NCBI RefSeq assembly: GCF_015101885.1
Contig: NZ_CP062941.1
Location: forward strand, 3,286,001-3,350,000
Length of the DNA: 64,000 bases
Direction: 5' to 3'
Source: Massilia litorea
Lineage (GTDB): Bacteria > Pseudomonadota > Gammaproteobacteria > Burkholderiales > Burkholderiaceae_D
Under the pieces are notes generated by a model. It ran no database searches. It was given only the letters and a program-made list of their open reading frames with translations, and had not been told where the DNA came from. This document shows, piece by piece, positions 50,279 to 60,310 of this stretch. The position numbers and the translations under genes were made by a program. Within the stretch, counting starts at the first letter, position 1. Every line of letters begins with the position of its first letter.

Positions 50279-50458
50279 GGGTGCCTCGCAAGTGGGTGGA
50301 GAACACGGCCATTCTAGGACGATCCCGGTACCGGTGGCGCTCCCTTGAGAAAGTCGTACGCTCAACTTTTTACACTTTTCGATAGGAAGTTGACATTGAC
50401 ATTCTTTTGTATTGATGAATACTCGTTAGGAAACTTCAACCTGTGAGGCGAGGTCACT

Positions 50459-50674
50459 ATGGAGCAATCCCCAAGCGAGCAAACGGATATATCGGCAGTC
50501 ATAGACGAATCCCGGACCGACGCGCGCCAGCGCCGCATCGTCGATGCCGGCATTGCGGTCCAGGACAGCAGCAATACCATGTCCGCATTCGAATACCTGC
50601 GCACACGCGATATCGACGTCCACGTCATCGAGCGGGTACTGCTGGAGCCGCACCGGCGCCGCTCCCGCTCCTGA
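50459..50674 (+). CDS. Small acidic/basic hypothetical protein
   Basis: 71 residues with GAGG before the ATG. The middle (RRIVDAGIAVQDSSNTMSAF) and the end (DIDVHVIERVLLEPHRRRSR) look like a two-helix regulator-type protein recurring in this bacterial family, but no function is known. A TTGACATTGACATT stretch at about 50392 could supply the -35 box. Confidence 0.6.
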   Translation: MEQSPSEQTDISAVIDESRTDARQRRIVDAGIAVQDSSNTMSAFEYLRTRDIDVHVIERVLLEPHRRRSRS

Positions 50675-51115
50675 AAGTTTCCCACAATACTGTCTTTTTG
50701 ATGTCAAAGGTGCATGTTTGTTGCGCCTGGTGACCGGCATTTATACACATAAGTTGCATTTTTTTATCTTCACCGATCTTCACGGTGGTCCTGCGCATGA
50801 TCTCGCAAGTCATTGATTTTTCGTGAATTCGGTGCTGCCCGCCGAACGGGCAAATTGTTGAAACCCGCATGCGGACGGGTTTTCCGCCTGTCAAGCCCCT
50901 TCTTTTCCACAAAGTTATTCACAGACTTTGTGGATATCCGGAAAAGTTCTTTGGTTACGGCTACTTAGCAGAAAAGGATCGCGTAACACGCGAGCTTCGC
51001 GCAACGCTCGTGCACGCTTTTTACAACATCGCATCGGGCAGCAAGTGCAAAATGCACTTGCGAAGCGCTACTGGACAAATGTACAGTTGCGTTGTCTTCA
51101 CCTTGTCAGTTTTCC
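50675..51115. other. Intergenic region holding the left DnaA-box repeat
   Basis: About 440 bases before the helicase gene. It contains the left copy of the 133-base direct repeat (50805-50937). No further gene is convincing; a long open frame from 50869 has no ribosome binding site and only shadows the helicase. Confidence 0.7.
50805..50937. repeat. 133-base direct repeat with three DnaA-box-like sites, left copy
   Basis: It starts GCAAGTCATTGATTTT, has TTGTTGAAACCCGCAT at offset 50 and three DnaA-type 9-mers: TTTTCCACA (50903), TTATTCACA (50915, fits TTATNCACA) and TGTGGATAT (50929, reverse orientation). The right copy at 53358-53490 has every element at exactly the same offset. Confidence 0.85.
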
Positions 51116-53251
51116 ATGTCCGCTGCCGCCGCCGTCGCTGTGCCCGCTCACTCGTCCGATCCTTTGGCTGCATCCGTGCCGGCCGCTTTACCCCCTGTCG
51201 ACGATCCTTTCGCCAGCCTCAATCCCGCGCAGCGCCTGGCGGTCGAGCACGACATCGGCGCAGCGGCCAGCCGGCCTTTGCTGGTCGTGGCCGGCGCCGG
51301 TTCGGGCAAGACGAATACCCTTGCGCACCGGGTGGCGCGCCTGATCATGGCCGGCGCCGATCCGCAGCGGATCCTGCTGCTGACCTTTTCGCGGCGCGCC
51401 GCCAACGAGATGACCCAGCGCGCCGGCAATGTACTGCAGAGGATCATGGGAGGCAGTGCGGGCGGCGTCGCGACGCTGCCCTGGGCCGGCACCTTCCACA
51501 GCATCGGTGCGCGCCTGCTGCGCGAATTTTCCGGGCGCATCGGCCTGGACGAATCGTTCACGATCCACGACCGCGGCGACTCCGAAGACCTGATGGGCCT
51601 GGTACGCCACGAGATCGGGCTGACCCAGACCGCCAAGCGTTTTCCCCTGAAAGGGACCTGTCTGTCGATCTATTCGCGGGTCGTGAATTCGCGCGAACCG
51701 CTCGACCTGGTTCTGCAGAGCACCTTCCCTTGGTGCTGCGAGTGGGAAGCGGAGCTGAAACGCCTGTTCGGCGCCTATGTCGACGCCAAGCAGGAGCAGA
51801 ATGTGCTCGACTACGACGATCTGCTGCTGTTCTGGGCCGAGATGGCCTCGGACCCCGAACTCGGGCCCGAGATCGGTTCCCTGTTCGACCACGTGCTGGT
51901 CGACGAATACCAGGACACCAACCGCCTGCAGGCCGCCATCATCACCGGCATGAAGCCGGGCGGGGAGGGCGTGATGGTGGTCGGCGACGATGCCCAGTCG
52001 ATCTATTCCTTCCGCGGCGCCACGGTGCGCAACATCCTCGACTTCCCGGGCCAGTTCTCGCAGCCGGCGCAGGTGATTACGCTCGACCGCAATTACCGCT
52101 CGACCCAGCCGATCCTCGACGCCTCGAACGCCGTGATCGCCGCCGCGCTCGAGCGCCACGCGAAAACGCTGTGGACGGACAAGGTCGCCAGCAGCCTGCC
52201 GCAGCTGGTCCTGATTCCCGACGAGGCCGAGCAGGCGCGCTGGGTCTGCAACCGCATCCTCGAACACCGCGAAGCGGGCATCAAGTTGACGACCCAGGCC
52301 GTGCTGTTCCGGGCGGCCAGCCATAGCGCGGCGCTGGAGCTCGAACTGATGCGCCGGAATATCCCGTTCGTGAAATTCGGCGGCCTGAAATTCCTGGAAG
52401 CCTCGCACATCAAGGACGTGCTGGCCGTGCTGCGCTTTGCCCAGAACCCGAACGGGCGCATGGCCGGCTTCCGGGTGCTGCAACTGATTCCGGGCATCGG
52501 CCCGGCCACGGCCACGCGCCTGCTGGACGCGATGGCCGCGGCGCCCGAAGCGCTGGACGCGGTCGAGGCCTTCACGCCGCCCTCGAAAAGCCAGGGCGAC
52601 TGGCAGGATTTCGTTACCCTGTACCGGCGCCTGCGCACGCCGGGTTTGCGCTGGCCGGCCGACATCGAGCTGGTGCGCGACTGGTACTTGCCCCACCTCG
52701 AGCGCCTGCACGACGACGCGACAGTGCGCGCGGCCGACGTCGCCCAGCTGGCCCAGCTGGCGGGCGGCCACGGCACGCGCGAAAGTTTCCTGGCGGAGAT
52801 CACGCTCGATCCGCCCGAGGCCACCAGCGACCGCGCCGGGCCGCCGCTGCTCGACGAAGATTATCTGATCCTGTCGACCATCCACTCGAGCAAGGGCCAG
52901 GAATGGAAGTCGGTGCACGTGCTGAATGTGGTGGACGGCTGCATTCCCTCCGATATGAGCACCGGAAGCGCCGAGGAAATCGAGGAGGAGCGGCGCCTGC
53001 TGTATGTCGCCATGACGCGCGCCAGGGAGCATCTGCACCTGGTGGTACCGAACCGTTTCTTCATCAAGCAGCAGTCGCAGATGGGCGATCGCCATGTGTA
53101 TGCGGCGCGCACCCGCTTCGTGACGCCGGCCATGCTCAAGCATTTCGAGGAATGCGTCTGGATCACGGCGGACACGGCGAAATCGAACAAGCCGATGCCC
53201 GACAGTGTCCGGATGCTGGTGCGCGATCGTGCCCGCAGCGCGTGGAAGTGA
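51116..53251 (+). CDS. UvrD/Rep-family ATP-dependent DNA helicase
   Basis: 711 residues. Superfamily 1A motifs in order: SLNPAQRLAVEH (Q motif), VAGAGSGKTNTLAHRVARL (I, residues about 58-76), ILLLTFSRRAANEMTQRA (Ia), HVLVDEYQDTNRLQ (II), VMVVGDDAQSIYSFRGA (III), LDRNYRSTQPILD (IV), and STIHSSKGQEWKSVHVLNVVDG with RRLLYVAMTRAREHLHL (V-VI). It is shorter than UvrD by a reduced 2B domain and C terminus. It unwinds DNA 3' to 5', probably in repair or replication restart. No ribosome binding site is strong; ATG 51116 is chosen over an upstream TTG. The gene is bracketed by the DnaA-box repeats. Confidence 0.92.
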   Translation: MSAAAAVAVPAHSSDPLAASVPAALPPVDDPFASLNPAQRLAVEHDIGAAASRPLLVVAGAGSGKTNTLAHRVARLIMAGADPQRILLLTFSRRAANEMTQRAGNVLQRIMGGSAGGVATLPWAGTFHSIGARLLREFSGRIGLDESFTIHDRGDSEDLMGLVRHEIGLTQTAKRFPLKGTCLSIYSRVVNSREPLDLVLQSTFPWCCEWEAELKRLFGAYVDAKQEQNVLDYDDLLLFWAEMASDPELGPEIGSLFDHVLVDEYQDTNRLQAAIITGMKPGGEGVMVVGDDAQSIYSFRGATVRNILDFPGQFSQPAQVITLDRNYRSTQPILDASNAVIAAALERHAKTLWTDKVASSLPQLVLIPDEAEQARWVCNRILEHREAGIKLTTQAVLFRAASHSAALELELMRRNIPFVKFGGLKFLEASHIKDVLAVLRFAQNPNGRMAGFRVLQLIPGIGPATATRLLDAMAAAPEALDAVEAFTPPSKSQGDWQDFVTLYRRLRTPGLRWPADIELVRDWYLPHLERLHDDATVRAADVAQLAQLAGGHGTRESFLAEITLDPPEATSDRAGPPLLDEDYLILSTIHSSKGQEWKSVHVLNVVDGCIPSDMSTGSAEEIEEERRLLYVAMTRAREHLHLVVPNRFFIKQQSQMGDRHVYAARTRFVTPAMLKHFEECVWITADTAKSNKPMPDSVRMLVRDRARSAWK

Positions 53252-53357
53252 GGAGGGGAAATGGCGCAGAGAATGTGTCTCAAGCTGACTTATCCCCCGT
53301 TGTAGGACTTTGTAGGAATTTGCTGATAACGGCCCTGTGCACGAAAGCACAGTGCGT

Positions 53358-53490
53358 GCAAGCCATTGATTTTAAAGGACACAATTTCTGCCTGTAGATT
53401 GGGCATTTTGTTGAAACCCGCATCAATACTGCGCTTGCGGCTTGTCAAGAGGCGCTTGTCCACACAGTTATCCACAATTCTTGTGGATAT
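53358..53490. repeat. 133-base direct repeat with three DnaA-box-like sites, right copy
   Basis: Same layout as the left copy at 50805-50937: GCAAGCCATTGATTTT, TTGTTGAAACCCGCAT at offset 50, then TTGTCCACA (53456), TTATCCACA (53468, perfect DnaA box) and TGTGGATAT (53482). Both repeats have the same orientation, on either side of the helicase gene. Confidence 0.85.
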
Positions 53491-53519
53491 CAGCGCCGCC
53501 CTAATGAAATCAATGACTT
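53360..53519. repeat. 160-base element with 13-base terminal inverted repeats (MITE-like)
   Basis: AAGCCATTGATTT (53360-53372) and AAATCAATGACTT (53507-53519) are inverted copies (12 of 13). The element spans the right DnaA-box repeat. The left copy keeps the first terminus as AAGTCATTGATTT but its expected second terminus (50954-50966) is degraded. Confidence 0.65.
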
Positions 53520-53527
53520 AGCTGCAA

Positions 53528-54370
53528 TTATTTGCGCTGCATCAGCTCAGCCATCGCTTCGAGCGCGTCCCGTGCAGTAAGCGAAATTGCAACACCCGGA
53601 TGGCCGTCGAGCTGGGACGCGCGCGGATTGATGCGCACGATCGGCACGCCCTGCATCTGGCTCATGCGCCGCACAGAGGGAATGTCGATGCCGGCGCCGA
53701 GTTCGATCACGACCATTCCGCGCACCCTTGCGCGCCAGCGCCGCAGCCGTTCGAACTGCGCATCGGTCCGGTTCGCGATCCAGTCGCCGTCGTTGAACAT
53801 CAGGATGTTGGGCCGGGCCAGCGCCCCGCAATGCGGACAGCGCGGCGGCGCCGAGCGCAGCCGGCAAGCCTGCGCGTCGACCAGCGGCATGAATGCGTCC
53901 GCCGTCCAGGTCGCGTTCGAGCAGGGCAGGGTGCATTGCAGGTGGTGGATCGAGCCGTGGCATTCGACGATGCGCGCCTCGTCGAAGCCGGCGCGCTGGA
54001 ACTGGCCGTCGACATTGCTCGTGAAGACAAAGGCGCCGCCGGGCATATCGGCGGCCAACCTGCGCAGGATCGTGAACCCCGGGTGCGGCACCGTGTCCCG
54101 GTAGAGCTGCAGGCGATGCCCGTAGAAGCCCCAGGCAAGGGCAGGATCGTCGGCGAAGGATGCCGGATTGGCGATCTCGTGGAAGGCAATGTTTGATGCG
54201 CGCAAGGCCGGATAGGCTTGCCAGAAGCCGCTGTTGCCGCGAAAGTCGGGCAGGCCGGAATCGACGCCGATGCCGGCGCCGGCGCAGATCAGGAGCGAAT
54301 GCGCTTCGCGCAGGAGTTGCGCGGCGTCGGCGAGGCCGGCGGCCTTGTCAGCGCCAGGGTTCGACAACAC
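53528..54370 (-). CDS. Sir2-family NAD-dependent protein deacylase (sirtuin)
   Basis: About 280 residues. LLICAGAGIGVDSGLPDFRG (NAD site), FVFTSNVDGQFQRAG, VECHGSIHHLQC (catalytic His) and a zinc site CTLPC ... CPHCG; RPNILMFND and VVIELGAGIDIPSV follow. Full sirtuin length. It removes acyl groups from lysine using NAD. Start: GTG at 54370 (or TTG 54367) overlaps the previous gene by about 23 bases; ATG 54409 would overlap it by 62. Coupling to the small secreted-protein gene is suggested. Confidence 0.87.
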   Translation of the reverse strand: MLSNPGADKAAGLADAAQLLREAHSLLICAGAGIGVDSGLPDFRGNSGFWQAYPALRASNIAFHEIANPASFADDPALAWGFYGHRLQLYRDTVPHPGFTILRRLAADMPGGAFVFTSNVDGQFQRAGFDEARIVECHGSIHHLQCTLPCSNATWTADAFMPLVDAQACRLRSAPPRCPHCGALARPNILMFNDGDWIANRTDAQFERLRRWRARVRGMVVIELGAGIDIPSVRRMSQMQGVPIVRINPRASQLDGHPGVAISLTARDALEAMAELMQRK

Positions 54371-59263: not shown

Positions 59264-60310
59264 GGCGCTGTTCGCGTTAAATGTGGAATATGCCGATTGC
59301 CGCTCGCAGCAAAGCCTCTGGCGTCTTAATACGGGCGCCGTCGAGCGCCCAGCGCCAGCCGAGATAGTTGCCGAGGTAACGGCTGGCAATCCCGCGAAAT
59401 GGCTGCAGCCAGCCGCGCAGGCGGCTGTGATAGGCATTCACGTTCTGGACGTGGAGTGCGCCGCGCACCCGGATTCCCGCCTGCAAGTTCACCGTTTGGT
59501 GGGTGATCCCGGCTTCGCGCGCGAAATGCCGGTAGGCCGCATGGGCGTCCGTCACCAGCAACACGTCCGGCTCCAGGCGCACTTTCAAATGTTCGTGCAA
59601 TTGCGCCCGCGTCACCGGCCCCTTGCCGGGGACCCAGTCGAGCGTCTGGCCGGTCCGGTCGCGTGCGACCAGGATGCACATCTGTTCCTTTGAAATACCG
59701 CGTTTTGTCGCTTTGCCGCCGCGCTTGCGTGGAGGTCGATCGAGCGAGCGGGACCCTTTGTGTGATTCGAGCACATACATCTCGTCGGCCTCGGCGATCC
59801 CGGCCAGGCGCTGGGGCCGGTCGTTTTGAGTGAGCGCGAGAAAACGGTGGCGCCAGCGAAAGCTGGTGGCGCCGGCGACGCCGAGCTGGGCGGCGCTGCG
59901 CCGGATACTGTGCGAGTCGAGCATGCCGCCCAGGTAATCGAGCCAGCGCCCTTTGTGGCGCAAGCGCGCCAGCGGCGTGTTGGTGAGCGCATTGCAGGTG
60001 CGGCCGCAAGCGCGGCAACGAAAGCGCTGCAGCCCGTTGGCGCGGCCGTGCTTGTGAAACTGCTGCGCGCCGCAACCGGGACAGGCAAGTTGTGGCGCGC
60101 TCGCCTGCTCGATGACGTCCACCGTCCGATCGCGCTTGACCGTTGGCAGCAGCAGGCCGAGCAGCCGCTCGCGCTGGCGCCGGGTCAGCGCGGCCAGGTT
60201 CTTCAGGAAGTGCTCGAACTTGCGTGCATGCATGCGAACCTCCTCACGGGTGAAGTCCGGGTTGGACCTCAGCCGTTCAAGAAGATTCCACACTCAACGC
60301 GAACAGCGCC
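59264..60310 (-). mobile_element. IS1595-family insertion sequence, 1047 bases
   Basis: Terminal inverted repeats of about 26 bases (24 matching) begin GGCGCTGTTCGCGTT at both ends. Eight T (59256-59263) precede it and at least eight T (60311-60318 of a ten-T run) follow it, fitting the eight-base target duplication of this family. One intact transposase is inside. No passenger gene. Confidence 0.88.
59277..60293 (-). CDS. IS1595-family transposase
   Basis: 338 residues. An N-terminal C2C2 zinc ribbon (LACPGCGAQQFHKHG ... RCRACGRTCNAL) binds the ends; the DDE-type ISXO2-like core shows AGIAEADEMYVLESHKGSRS, LEPDVLLVTDAHAAYRHFA and NVNAYHSRLRGWLQPFRGIA with SRYLGNYLGWRW. The frame is intact. 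Start: GTG at 60293 inside the right inverted repeat, or ATG at 60233; the stop TAA lies inside the left repeat. Confidence 0.9.
   Translation of the reverse strand: MWNLLERLRSNPDFTREEVRMHARKFEHFLKNLAALTRRQRERLLGLLLPTVKRDRTVDVIEQASAPQLACPGCGAQQFHKHGRANGLQRFRCRACGRTCNALTNTPLARLRHKGRWLDYLGGMLDSHSIRRSAAQLGVAGATSFRWRHRFLALTQNDRPQRLAGIAEADEMYVLESHKGSRSLDRPPRKRGGKATKRGISKEQMCILVARDRTGQTLDWVPGKGPVTRAQLHEHLKVRLEPDVLLVTDAHAAYRHFAREAGITHQTVNLQAGIRVRGALHVQNVNAYHSRLRGWLQPFRGIASRYLGNYLGWRWALDGARIKTPEALLRAAIGIFHI

Follow-up and report, generated by a model that had tools for sequence, protein, structure and literature searches.

Introduction

In Escherichia coli, DARS1 and DARS2 have in common a core of three DnaA boxes of identical spacing with box I opposed to the other two, on which ADP-DnaA oligomers form, stand head-to-head at boxes I/II and release ADP, as set out in the accessible sections of PMC5742627. 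According to the same partial text, DARS1 is active in vitro without added factors, IHF included, and DARS2 needs both IHF and Fis (PMC5742627; PMC4245941, accessible sections). The IBS1-2 of DARS2, with 3 bp between, gave partial activity when shifted from the core by 5 bp and moderate activity when shifted by 10 bp, whereas activity was no more than partial after either shift in the opposite direction (PMC4245941, accessible sections). DARS-like sequences are mentioned for E. coli-proximal beta- or gamma-proteobacteria (PMC5742627) and for many proteobacteria (PMC10380432), and since the available parts of both papers state these likenesses, the occurrence of such sites outside the relatives of E. 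coli was foreseen. DnaA recharging has been worked out in E. coli, and the likenesses elsewhere come, in the accessible portions of the literature, without a layout or genomic places. Literature searches on DARS in betaproteobacteria or Burkholderia, or on DnaA boxes in Massilia, led to no paper on such sites, and DARS1 is not mentioned in PMC13036160. Here we compare with these systems a pair of repeated elements around a helicase gene.

Results

The window (the whole 64-kb stretch of DNA analysed) spans positions 3286001-3350000 of a 5.19 Mb contig (C1), in the Massilia-type genome of a soil-type bacterium, totalling 5.35 Mb. It contains two non-coding elements, the left one at 50805-50937, upstream of 51116, and the right one at 53358-53490, between the stops at 53251 and 53528. 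They are direct copies of 133 bp each with 72% identity over 104 bp (E-value = 1.2e-7), and a whole-genome search with the right copy matched these two places and none else. The landmark 16-mer TTGTTGAAACCCGCAT is established at offset 50 in both (50855..50870 and 53408..53423, + strand) and has no other exact match in the 5.35 Mb. With two mismatches it also appears at C1:11526 and C1:5186195, both close to the contig ends, which we guess to be one place doubled by contig overlap. Each element bears three DnaA boxes, the first two on the + and the last on the - strand, whose starts are separated by 12 and then 14 bp. In the left element these are TTTTCCACA at the place of DARS box III (50903..50911, + strand, offset 98), TTATTCACA at that of box II (50915..50923, + strand, offset 110) and the inverted ATATCCACA at that of box I (50929..50937, - strand, offset 124); in the right element they are TTGTCCACA (box III place, 53456..53464, + strand, offset 98), TTATCCACA (box II place, 53468..53476, + strand, offset 110) and again the inverted ATATCCACA (box I place, 53482..53490, - strand, offset 124). 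Perfect TTATNCACA boxes occur three times in the window against 0.20 expected, a number reached by none of 100 shuffles, and one of the three (50741) falls outside both elements.

The first-pass annotation had reported the 133-base direct repeats, the 16-mer at offset 50 and the three DnaA-type boxes at offsets 98, 110 and 124, and all of them are where it placed them. Its claim that the spacing is constant to one base holds for these landmarks but fails for TGTCAAG, which starts at offset 84 in the left copy but at 85 in the right one, the shift being compensated ahead of the boxes. Both 133-base copies stand, but the elements extend further than it had proposed: each opens with an IHF consensus (50806-50818 and 53359-53371), and the right one is trailed by another at 53508-53520.

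The perfect IHF consensus WATCAANNNNTTR is present three times in the 64-kb window, each time in the elements (0.27 expected; none of 100 shuffles reached three). Two of these sites, on the - strand, lie at -97 (in bp from the first DnaA box), at 50806..50818 on the left and 53359..53371 on the right, and the third (53508..53520, + strand) is located at +52 of the right element, inverted relative to the first. Counting only those genus copies whose core is exact, the predicted site at -97 is found in 26 of 30 left copies, with two more at -96, and in 30 of 36 right copies; a perfect consensus at +52 is carried by 23/36 right vs 0/30 left copies. The IHF-alpha gene was detected in the genome above its cut-off. 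A second ORF with the DnaA fold was also present, encoding 244 aa, which we presume may be Hda.

Between the -97 site and the boxes, at -66, both elements harbor an unstranded dyad with a G-N13-C outline, GCCCGCCGAACGGGC on the left (50837..50851) and GCCTGTAGATTGGGC on the right (53390..53404). Across the genus, 72/73 copies have a pyrimidine at its position 4 and 72/73 a purine at its position 12, which agrees in outline with the Fis consensus, and the dyad is a possible site of a Fis-like or other dimeric factor. Its 5-pair stem is paired in 99.2% of cells, with two pairs changed on both sides; such a well-kept stem is no proof of RNA, because a DNA dyad explains the pairing equally. An RNA reading was rejected, as folding either copy on either strand gave z-scores of -0.58 to -1.81, and the Rfam scan of the window returned no match at gathering thresholds. 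A promoter and terminator scan of 50300-53700 identified two promoter-like sites against 0.8 expected and three terminator-like sites against 2.7 expected, one of which (53389-53405) lies inside the right element.

Read in the same direction, the MG1655 stretches taken, by genome place, as DARS1 and DARS2 show boxes +, +, - at 12 and 14 bp. Both elements of the window share with these a non-coding chromosomal site and the three-box core, with the DARS1/DARS2 spacing and box I opposed to II and III. A degenerate pattern of this geometry with 20 largely fixed positions matched the own genome twice at zero mismatches, which are the two elements, and once more at two mismatches; allowing up to two mismatches, it matched neither in the E. 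coli datA stretch nor around the genome's own dnaA/oriC stretch.

Within the genus, the right copy as query matched 36/36 other genomes, 34 of them twice, and gave two weak matches, restricted to the core, in 24 genomes of other families. The pair is present in 36 of 37 same-genus genomes; the exception is G006, whose contig ends within the helicase, and the degenerate second copy of G029 was recovered by direct BLAST. The core pattern is exact in 30/36 left and 36/37 right copies (73 copies in total), and mean pairwise identity is.68 inside the left and.75 inside the right copy vs.34 to.46 in the flanks, the right copy thus being the better conserved. Left and right copies are as similar within a genome (.627) as between genomes (.626), so the doubling is older than the sample and the copies evolve apart, with no sign of gene conversion between them in this comparison. 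Exact matches to 22 bases of the right copy, sought as a pattern in a named-genome collection, were obtained in 33 stretches, belonging to Massilia, Telluria, Janthinobacterium, Rugamonas, one strain labelled Herbaspirillum and one family-level MAG, and across the genomes compared the pair shares one gene neighbourhood.

The gene between the elements (51116..53251, + strand) encodes a UvrD/PcrA-like helicase of 711 aa. A defence role was considered for it and rejected: its PADLOC matches, spread over 52 families of which the best 25 were seen, are led by the GajB and RTasHel models and are read as the general UvrD superfamily. Two genes converge on the right element, the helicase ending at 53251 and a Sir2-family gene at 53528, so that the element is the promoter of neither. 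The helicase is present in 34 of the 36 same-genus stretches retrieved and missing from two (G016 and G035); a third genome without it, G333, was found later. All three keep both elements without a helicase orthologue: their best match anywhere is a 32-33% paralogue, and the genomes are scored 100% complete. The elements are 529 bp apart in G016 and 346 bp apart in G333, in the same neighbourhood, and in G035 they enclose a DUF2271 gene, a PepSY/flavodoxin-type reductase gene and an ApbE gene. A MAG contig (L130) retains fragments of the helicase between paired elements. In three Janthinobacterium loci (L148, L152, L160) the pair is 1.05 kb apart, with one mismatch in the cores, and a helicase match sought at 1e-8 was not found; L148 has a response-regulator gene between the elements. 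The helicase is probably a passenger. The first-pass annotation had suggested that the array may tie helicase expression to DnaA; the pairs kept by these three genomes and by Janthinobacterium, together with the right copy between convergent 3' ends, do not support this.

A second locus was detected in the same genome, where the non-coding stretch between exbB and xseA (L124) contains seven arrays with up to four mismatches. Five further same-genus genomes also have six or seven arrays by xseA, giving 38 in all six, and in 18 of these 38 the array is preceded, by exactly 30 or 29 bp, by a perfect IHF consensus. The window pair and the xseA cluster are located on opposite arms from dnaA in 6/6 genomes, at distances (pair/cluster, as fraction of the contig) of.44/.25,.24/.44,.32/.31,.31/.31,.34/.33 and.32/.32. 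A terminus-specific role of the pair was rejected, because its distance from dnaA is not fixed (.24 to.44 in six genomes with a chromosome-sized contig).

Across the order, the core geometry with at most one mismatch was identified in 199 of 399 genomes (181/346 of high quality), and 200/399 gave no match. The reversed pattern had no match tabulated among the 399, a weak control, here as in the phylum sample below, because real DnaA boxes break that pattern. As a stronger control, both gaps were left free (110 combinations) in the 399 genomes: 58 matches were obtained in 53 genomes, and 54 of the 58 have the DARS length of 34 bp (the exceptions are on G193:C107, G349:C2, G211:C16 and G184:C5). 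The first-pass annotation had proposed that the DnaA boxes belong to a protein-binding array kept by selection and had staked this on the spacing recurring elsewhere; it does so in these 199 genomes and 54 free-gap matches, and with a geometry also kept across the genus the array is, judged from sequence, probably a selected one. Further out, the core pattern matched 134/299 genomes of a phylum sample; by hand count, these include 49 of the 67 genomes that belong to the class but not to the order. As a positive control, the family with E. coli-like DARS1/DARS2 sequences (f58) gave exactly two matches in 8/11 genomes (hand count), and its three genomes with no match are 1.0-1.2 Mb in size.

We examined 29 order loci (L084-L112), a non-random draw with four of the same genus. 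Twelve are beside xseA (with exbB or lpxK), seven beside priA, with hemE in the stretch of six, four at the present locus, where helicase-less cases were assigned by gene neighbourhood, and six at none of these places. By eye, several of the hemE-priA elements in other genera of the family have the longer module, with a TTGTTGAAACCCGCAT-like block and TGTCAAG; the window pair and the priA sites therefore look like copies of one module.

The flanks were scanned, on the strand used by the window elements, for an IHF consensus lying between -100 and -95 and having at most one mismatch. The order set comprised 25 loci (24 of the 29, without L105-L109, plus L074) with 28 arrays, and the non-order set 40 further matches of the phylum sample, hand-chosen before the flanks were seen, with 41 arrays. 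The site is present in 22/28 order arrays (15 perfect; 0.07 expected; 5/5 families) and in 20/41 non-order arrays (13 perfect; 0.2 expected; 14/19 families), that is, at -95 to -100 in 42/69 outside-genus arrays combined, with about 0.3 expected. The opposite orientation at -100 to -95 was found in 2/28 order and 0/41 non-order arrays. A G-N13-C 15-mer, its interior often A/T-rich, is placed at exactly -66 in 13 of the 20 IHF-bearing non-order arrays (1.5 expected), and within the order it is less regular. At -64 to -67 the outline occurs in 30/42 IHF-bearing arrays, a weak count because G-N13-C is common, and the only standout of these counts is the peak at exactly -66 in the non-order arrays.

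Discussion

The anatomy of the elements, a core geometry equal to that of both E. coli DARS, the IHF consensus at a fixed offset, the conservation of the pair and its persistence without the helicase make it likely that the two elements are a tandem pair of IHF-assisted DARS-type sites around a passenger gene. Because relatives without the helicase keep both, the elements probably help to time chromosome copying and do not serve the helicase. Binding of DnaA and IHF, nucleotide exchange and an effect on initiation timing are what we infer. IHF would bind at -97 and bend the DNA, a second factor, Fis-like or other, may occupy the -66 dyad, and DnaA-ADP would assemble on the core, where the molecule at the middle box would face the one at the inverted box head to head. 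ADP would then be loosened and apo-DnaA released, as happens at the E. coli DARS, giving more DnaA-ATP before the next initiation.

The main rival is a DnaA sink, in which the elements lower DnaA activity, either through titration by the boxes or through datA-like, IHF-aided hydrolysis of the ATP bound to DnaA. datA has the same ingredients of DnaA boxes plus IHF, near-consensus boxes should bind both DnaA forms, and the seven degenerate arrays beside xseA would add sink capacity. However, each element offers three boxes only, the 12/14 bp geometry with an inverted box is the DARS core and is absent from the E. coli datA stretch, and plain titration needs no fixed spacing, yet 54/58 free-gap matches have it; we consider a sink improbable. 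Still more doubtful is a DnaA/IHF-controlled transcription that would tie the expression of the helicase, and elsewhere of xseA or priA, to DnaA. The left copy does lie upstream of the helicase, and many order arrays adjoin xseA or priA, which are DNA repair and restart genes, but the better conserved right copy sits between convergent 3' ends, both elements remain when the helicase is missing, and the promoter scan gave near-chance sites at most.

The remaining idea, that the repeats mark a mobile block or an accessory origin, appears very improbable. Its mobile form, with the helicase as cargo, was raised by the first-pass annotation and draws on direct repeats that flank variable content, namely the helicase, the flavoreductase/ApbE set, a response regulator or nothing sizeable. 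Against it, the gene neighbourhood is unchanged in the genomes compared, the copies diverged separately and are no more alike within than between genomes, and no further copy was found in the genome; neither of the marks of a mobile element, occurrence at several places or likeness of copies within a genome, was seen. For an accessory origin, three boxes are few and dnaA is 2.27 Mb away.

Some observations also count against the DARS-type reading itself. No IHF match at -95 to -100 was found in 21/41 non-order arrays, the core is inexact in 6/36 left and 1/37 right copies, and the -66 15-mer is absent in 10/13 IHF-bearing xseA-side arrays. Furthermore, IHF sites of E. coli DARS2 are at -87/-71 and, in the accessible text, Fis acts elsewhere. 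To these add the two-mismatch IHF match of MG1655 DARS1, the published activity of DARS1 in vitro without IHF, and the 200/399 order genomes that gave no match at up to one mismatch. A module whose IHF site, dyad and core are locked in spacing is recognizable from sequence and would give direct access to DnaA recharging in many genomes. Its predictions are that IHF acts at DARS1-type sites and that another factor binds at -66, and relatives with differing unit numbers would be a natural dosage series for initiation timing.

Concerning the known systems, the -98/-66 layout, the xseA/priA place and a tandem DARS were not met in the accessible portions of PMC5742627, PMC10380432, PMC8682772, PMC4585315, PMC12371093 and PMC13220808. 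E. coli datA resembles the elements in combining DnaA boxes and an IHF site in non-coding DNA; it differs in its layout, given in the available literature text as boxes 2, 3 and 7 plus one IHF site, and its stretch has no array of DARS geometry. oriC likewise has DnaA boxes and, in E. coli, IHF, but the elements (~3338000) have three boxes each and are 2.27 Mb from dnaA (G000:C1:1069842), and are thus no oriC. The MG1655 DARS2 sites at -87 and -71, with their 3 bp gap, fit the IBS1-2 described in the accessible part of PMC4245941. DARS2, between rppH and ygdT/mutH, shares with the elements the core geometry and the side on which IHF sites flank the core, the most similar site being also on the same strand. 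It is unlike them in that its two IHF sites lie at those places with one mismatch each vs the perfect consensus at a fixed -97 on the box-III side here, and it has neither an IHF match at -99 nor a G-N13-C at -66; the Fis site required for DARS2-type activity lies, in E. coli, elsewhere than the Fis-like outline seen here at -66. DARS2 also requires extra DnaA boxes and a Fis site, as far as the available text goes (PMC4245941).

DARS1 has the same three boxes in the same order, orientation and 12/14 bp spacing, and in MG1655 it carries a G-N13-C 15-mer, GCCGTCTTTAACGCC, at -66; it is unlike the elements in that its IHF match, at -99, has two mismatches, and in being single, with no tandem pair, at another genomic place. 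It is located beyond bioD, and uvrB is presumably its other neighbour. These comparisons allow a broader proposal, for which we see the case as evenly balanced: in Gammaproteobacteria (betas included), across much of the class, the standard DARS would have IHF at about -98, a dyad factor at -66 and the three-box core. E. coli DARS1 would then be a worn and DARS2 a rearranged member, and Massilia and its kin would run on multiplied copies, a tandem pair and an opposite-arm xseA array of 6-7 worn units with IHF locked at -30.

Content between the Paired Elements and Neighboring Features

The paired elements (left, 50805-50937; right, 53358-53490) flank a UvrD/PcrA-like helicase gene (51116-53251), and the DNA between them (equivalent of 50806-53520) varies in content among relatives (stretches L118, L119 and L114, the MAG contig L130 and the Janthinobacterium stretch L148), in which it comprises an intact helicase or fragments of one, reductase/ApbE genes, a response regulator, or no insert of any size. 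A perfect DnaA box, TTATACACA, the third in the window, is located at 50741-50749, 65 bp ahead of the left element. On the minus strand, a 338 aa ORF (59277-60293) appears to encode an IS1595-type transposase. Concerning the 16-mer landmark at offset 50 of both elements, two matches (2 mismatches) sharing the same 16 letters were located near both ends of the M. litorea contig (about 11526 and 5186195), a pattern that suggests an untrimmed overlap of the contig ends.

DnaA-box Arrays Elsewhere

Outside the window, the non-coding stretch between exbB and xseA (L124:4500-5700; about 4973500-4974700 of the contig) harbors seven degenerate arrays with DARS geometry, five of them preceded at a distance of 30 bp by a perfect IHF consensus. 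Five additional same-genus genomes bear 6-7 arrays each at this stretch, and an IHF site at -30 or -29 accompanies 18 of the 38 arrays from all six genomes.

Another array, flanked by hemE and priA, was detected in one same-genus genome (G012, L122:5050-5084) and in several other genera (L101, L104, L111, L112 and others). It lies about 0.02 of the contig away from dnaA in G012 and G061, and presents the same geometry of three DnaA boxes (+, +, -; starts 12 and 14 bp apart) as the Escherichia coli DARS1 and DARS2 cores.
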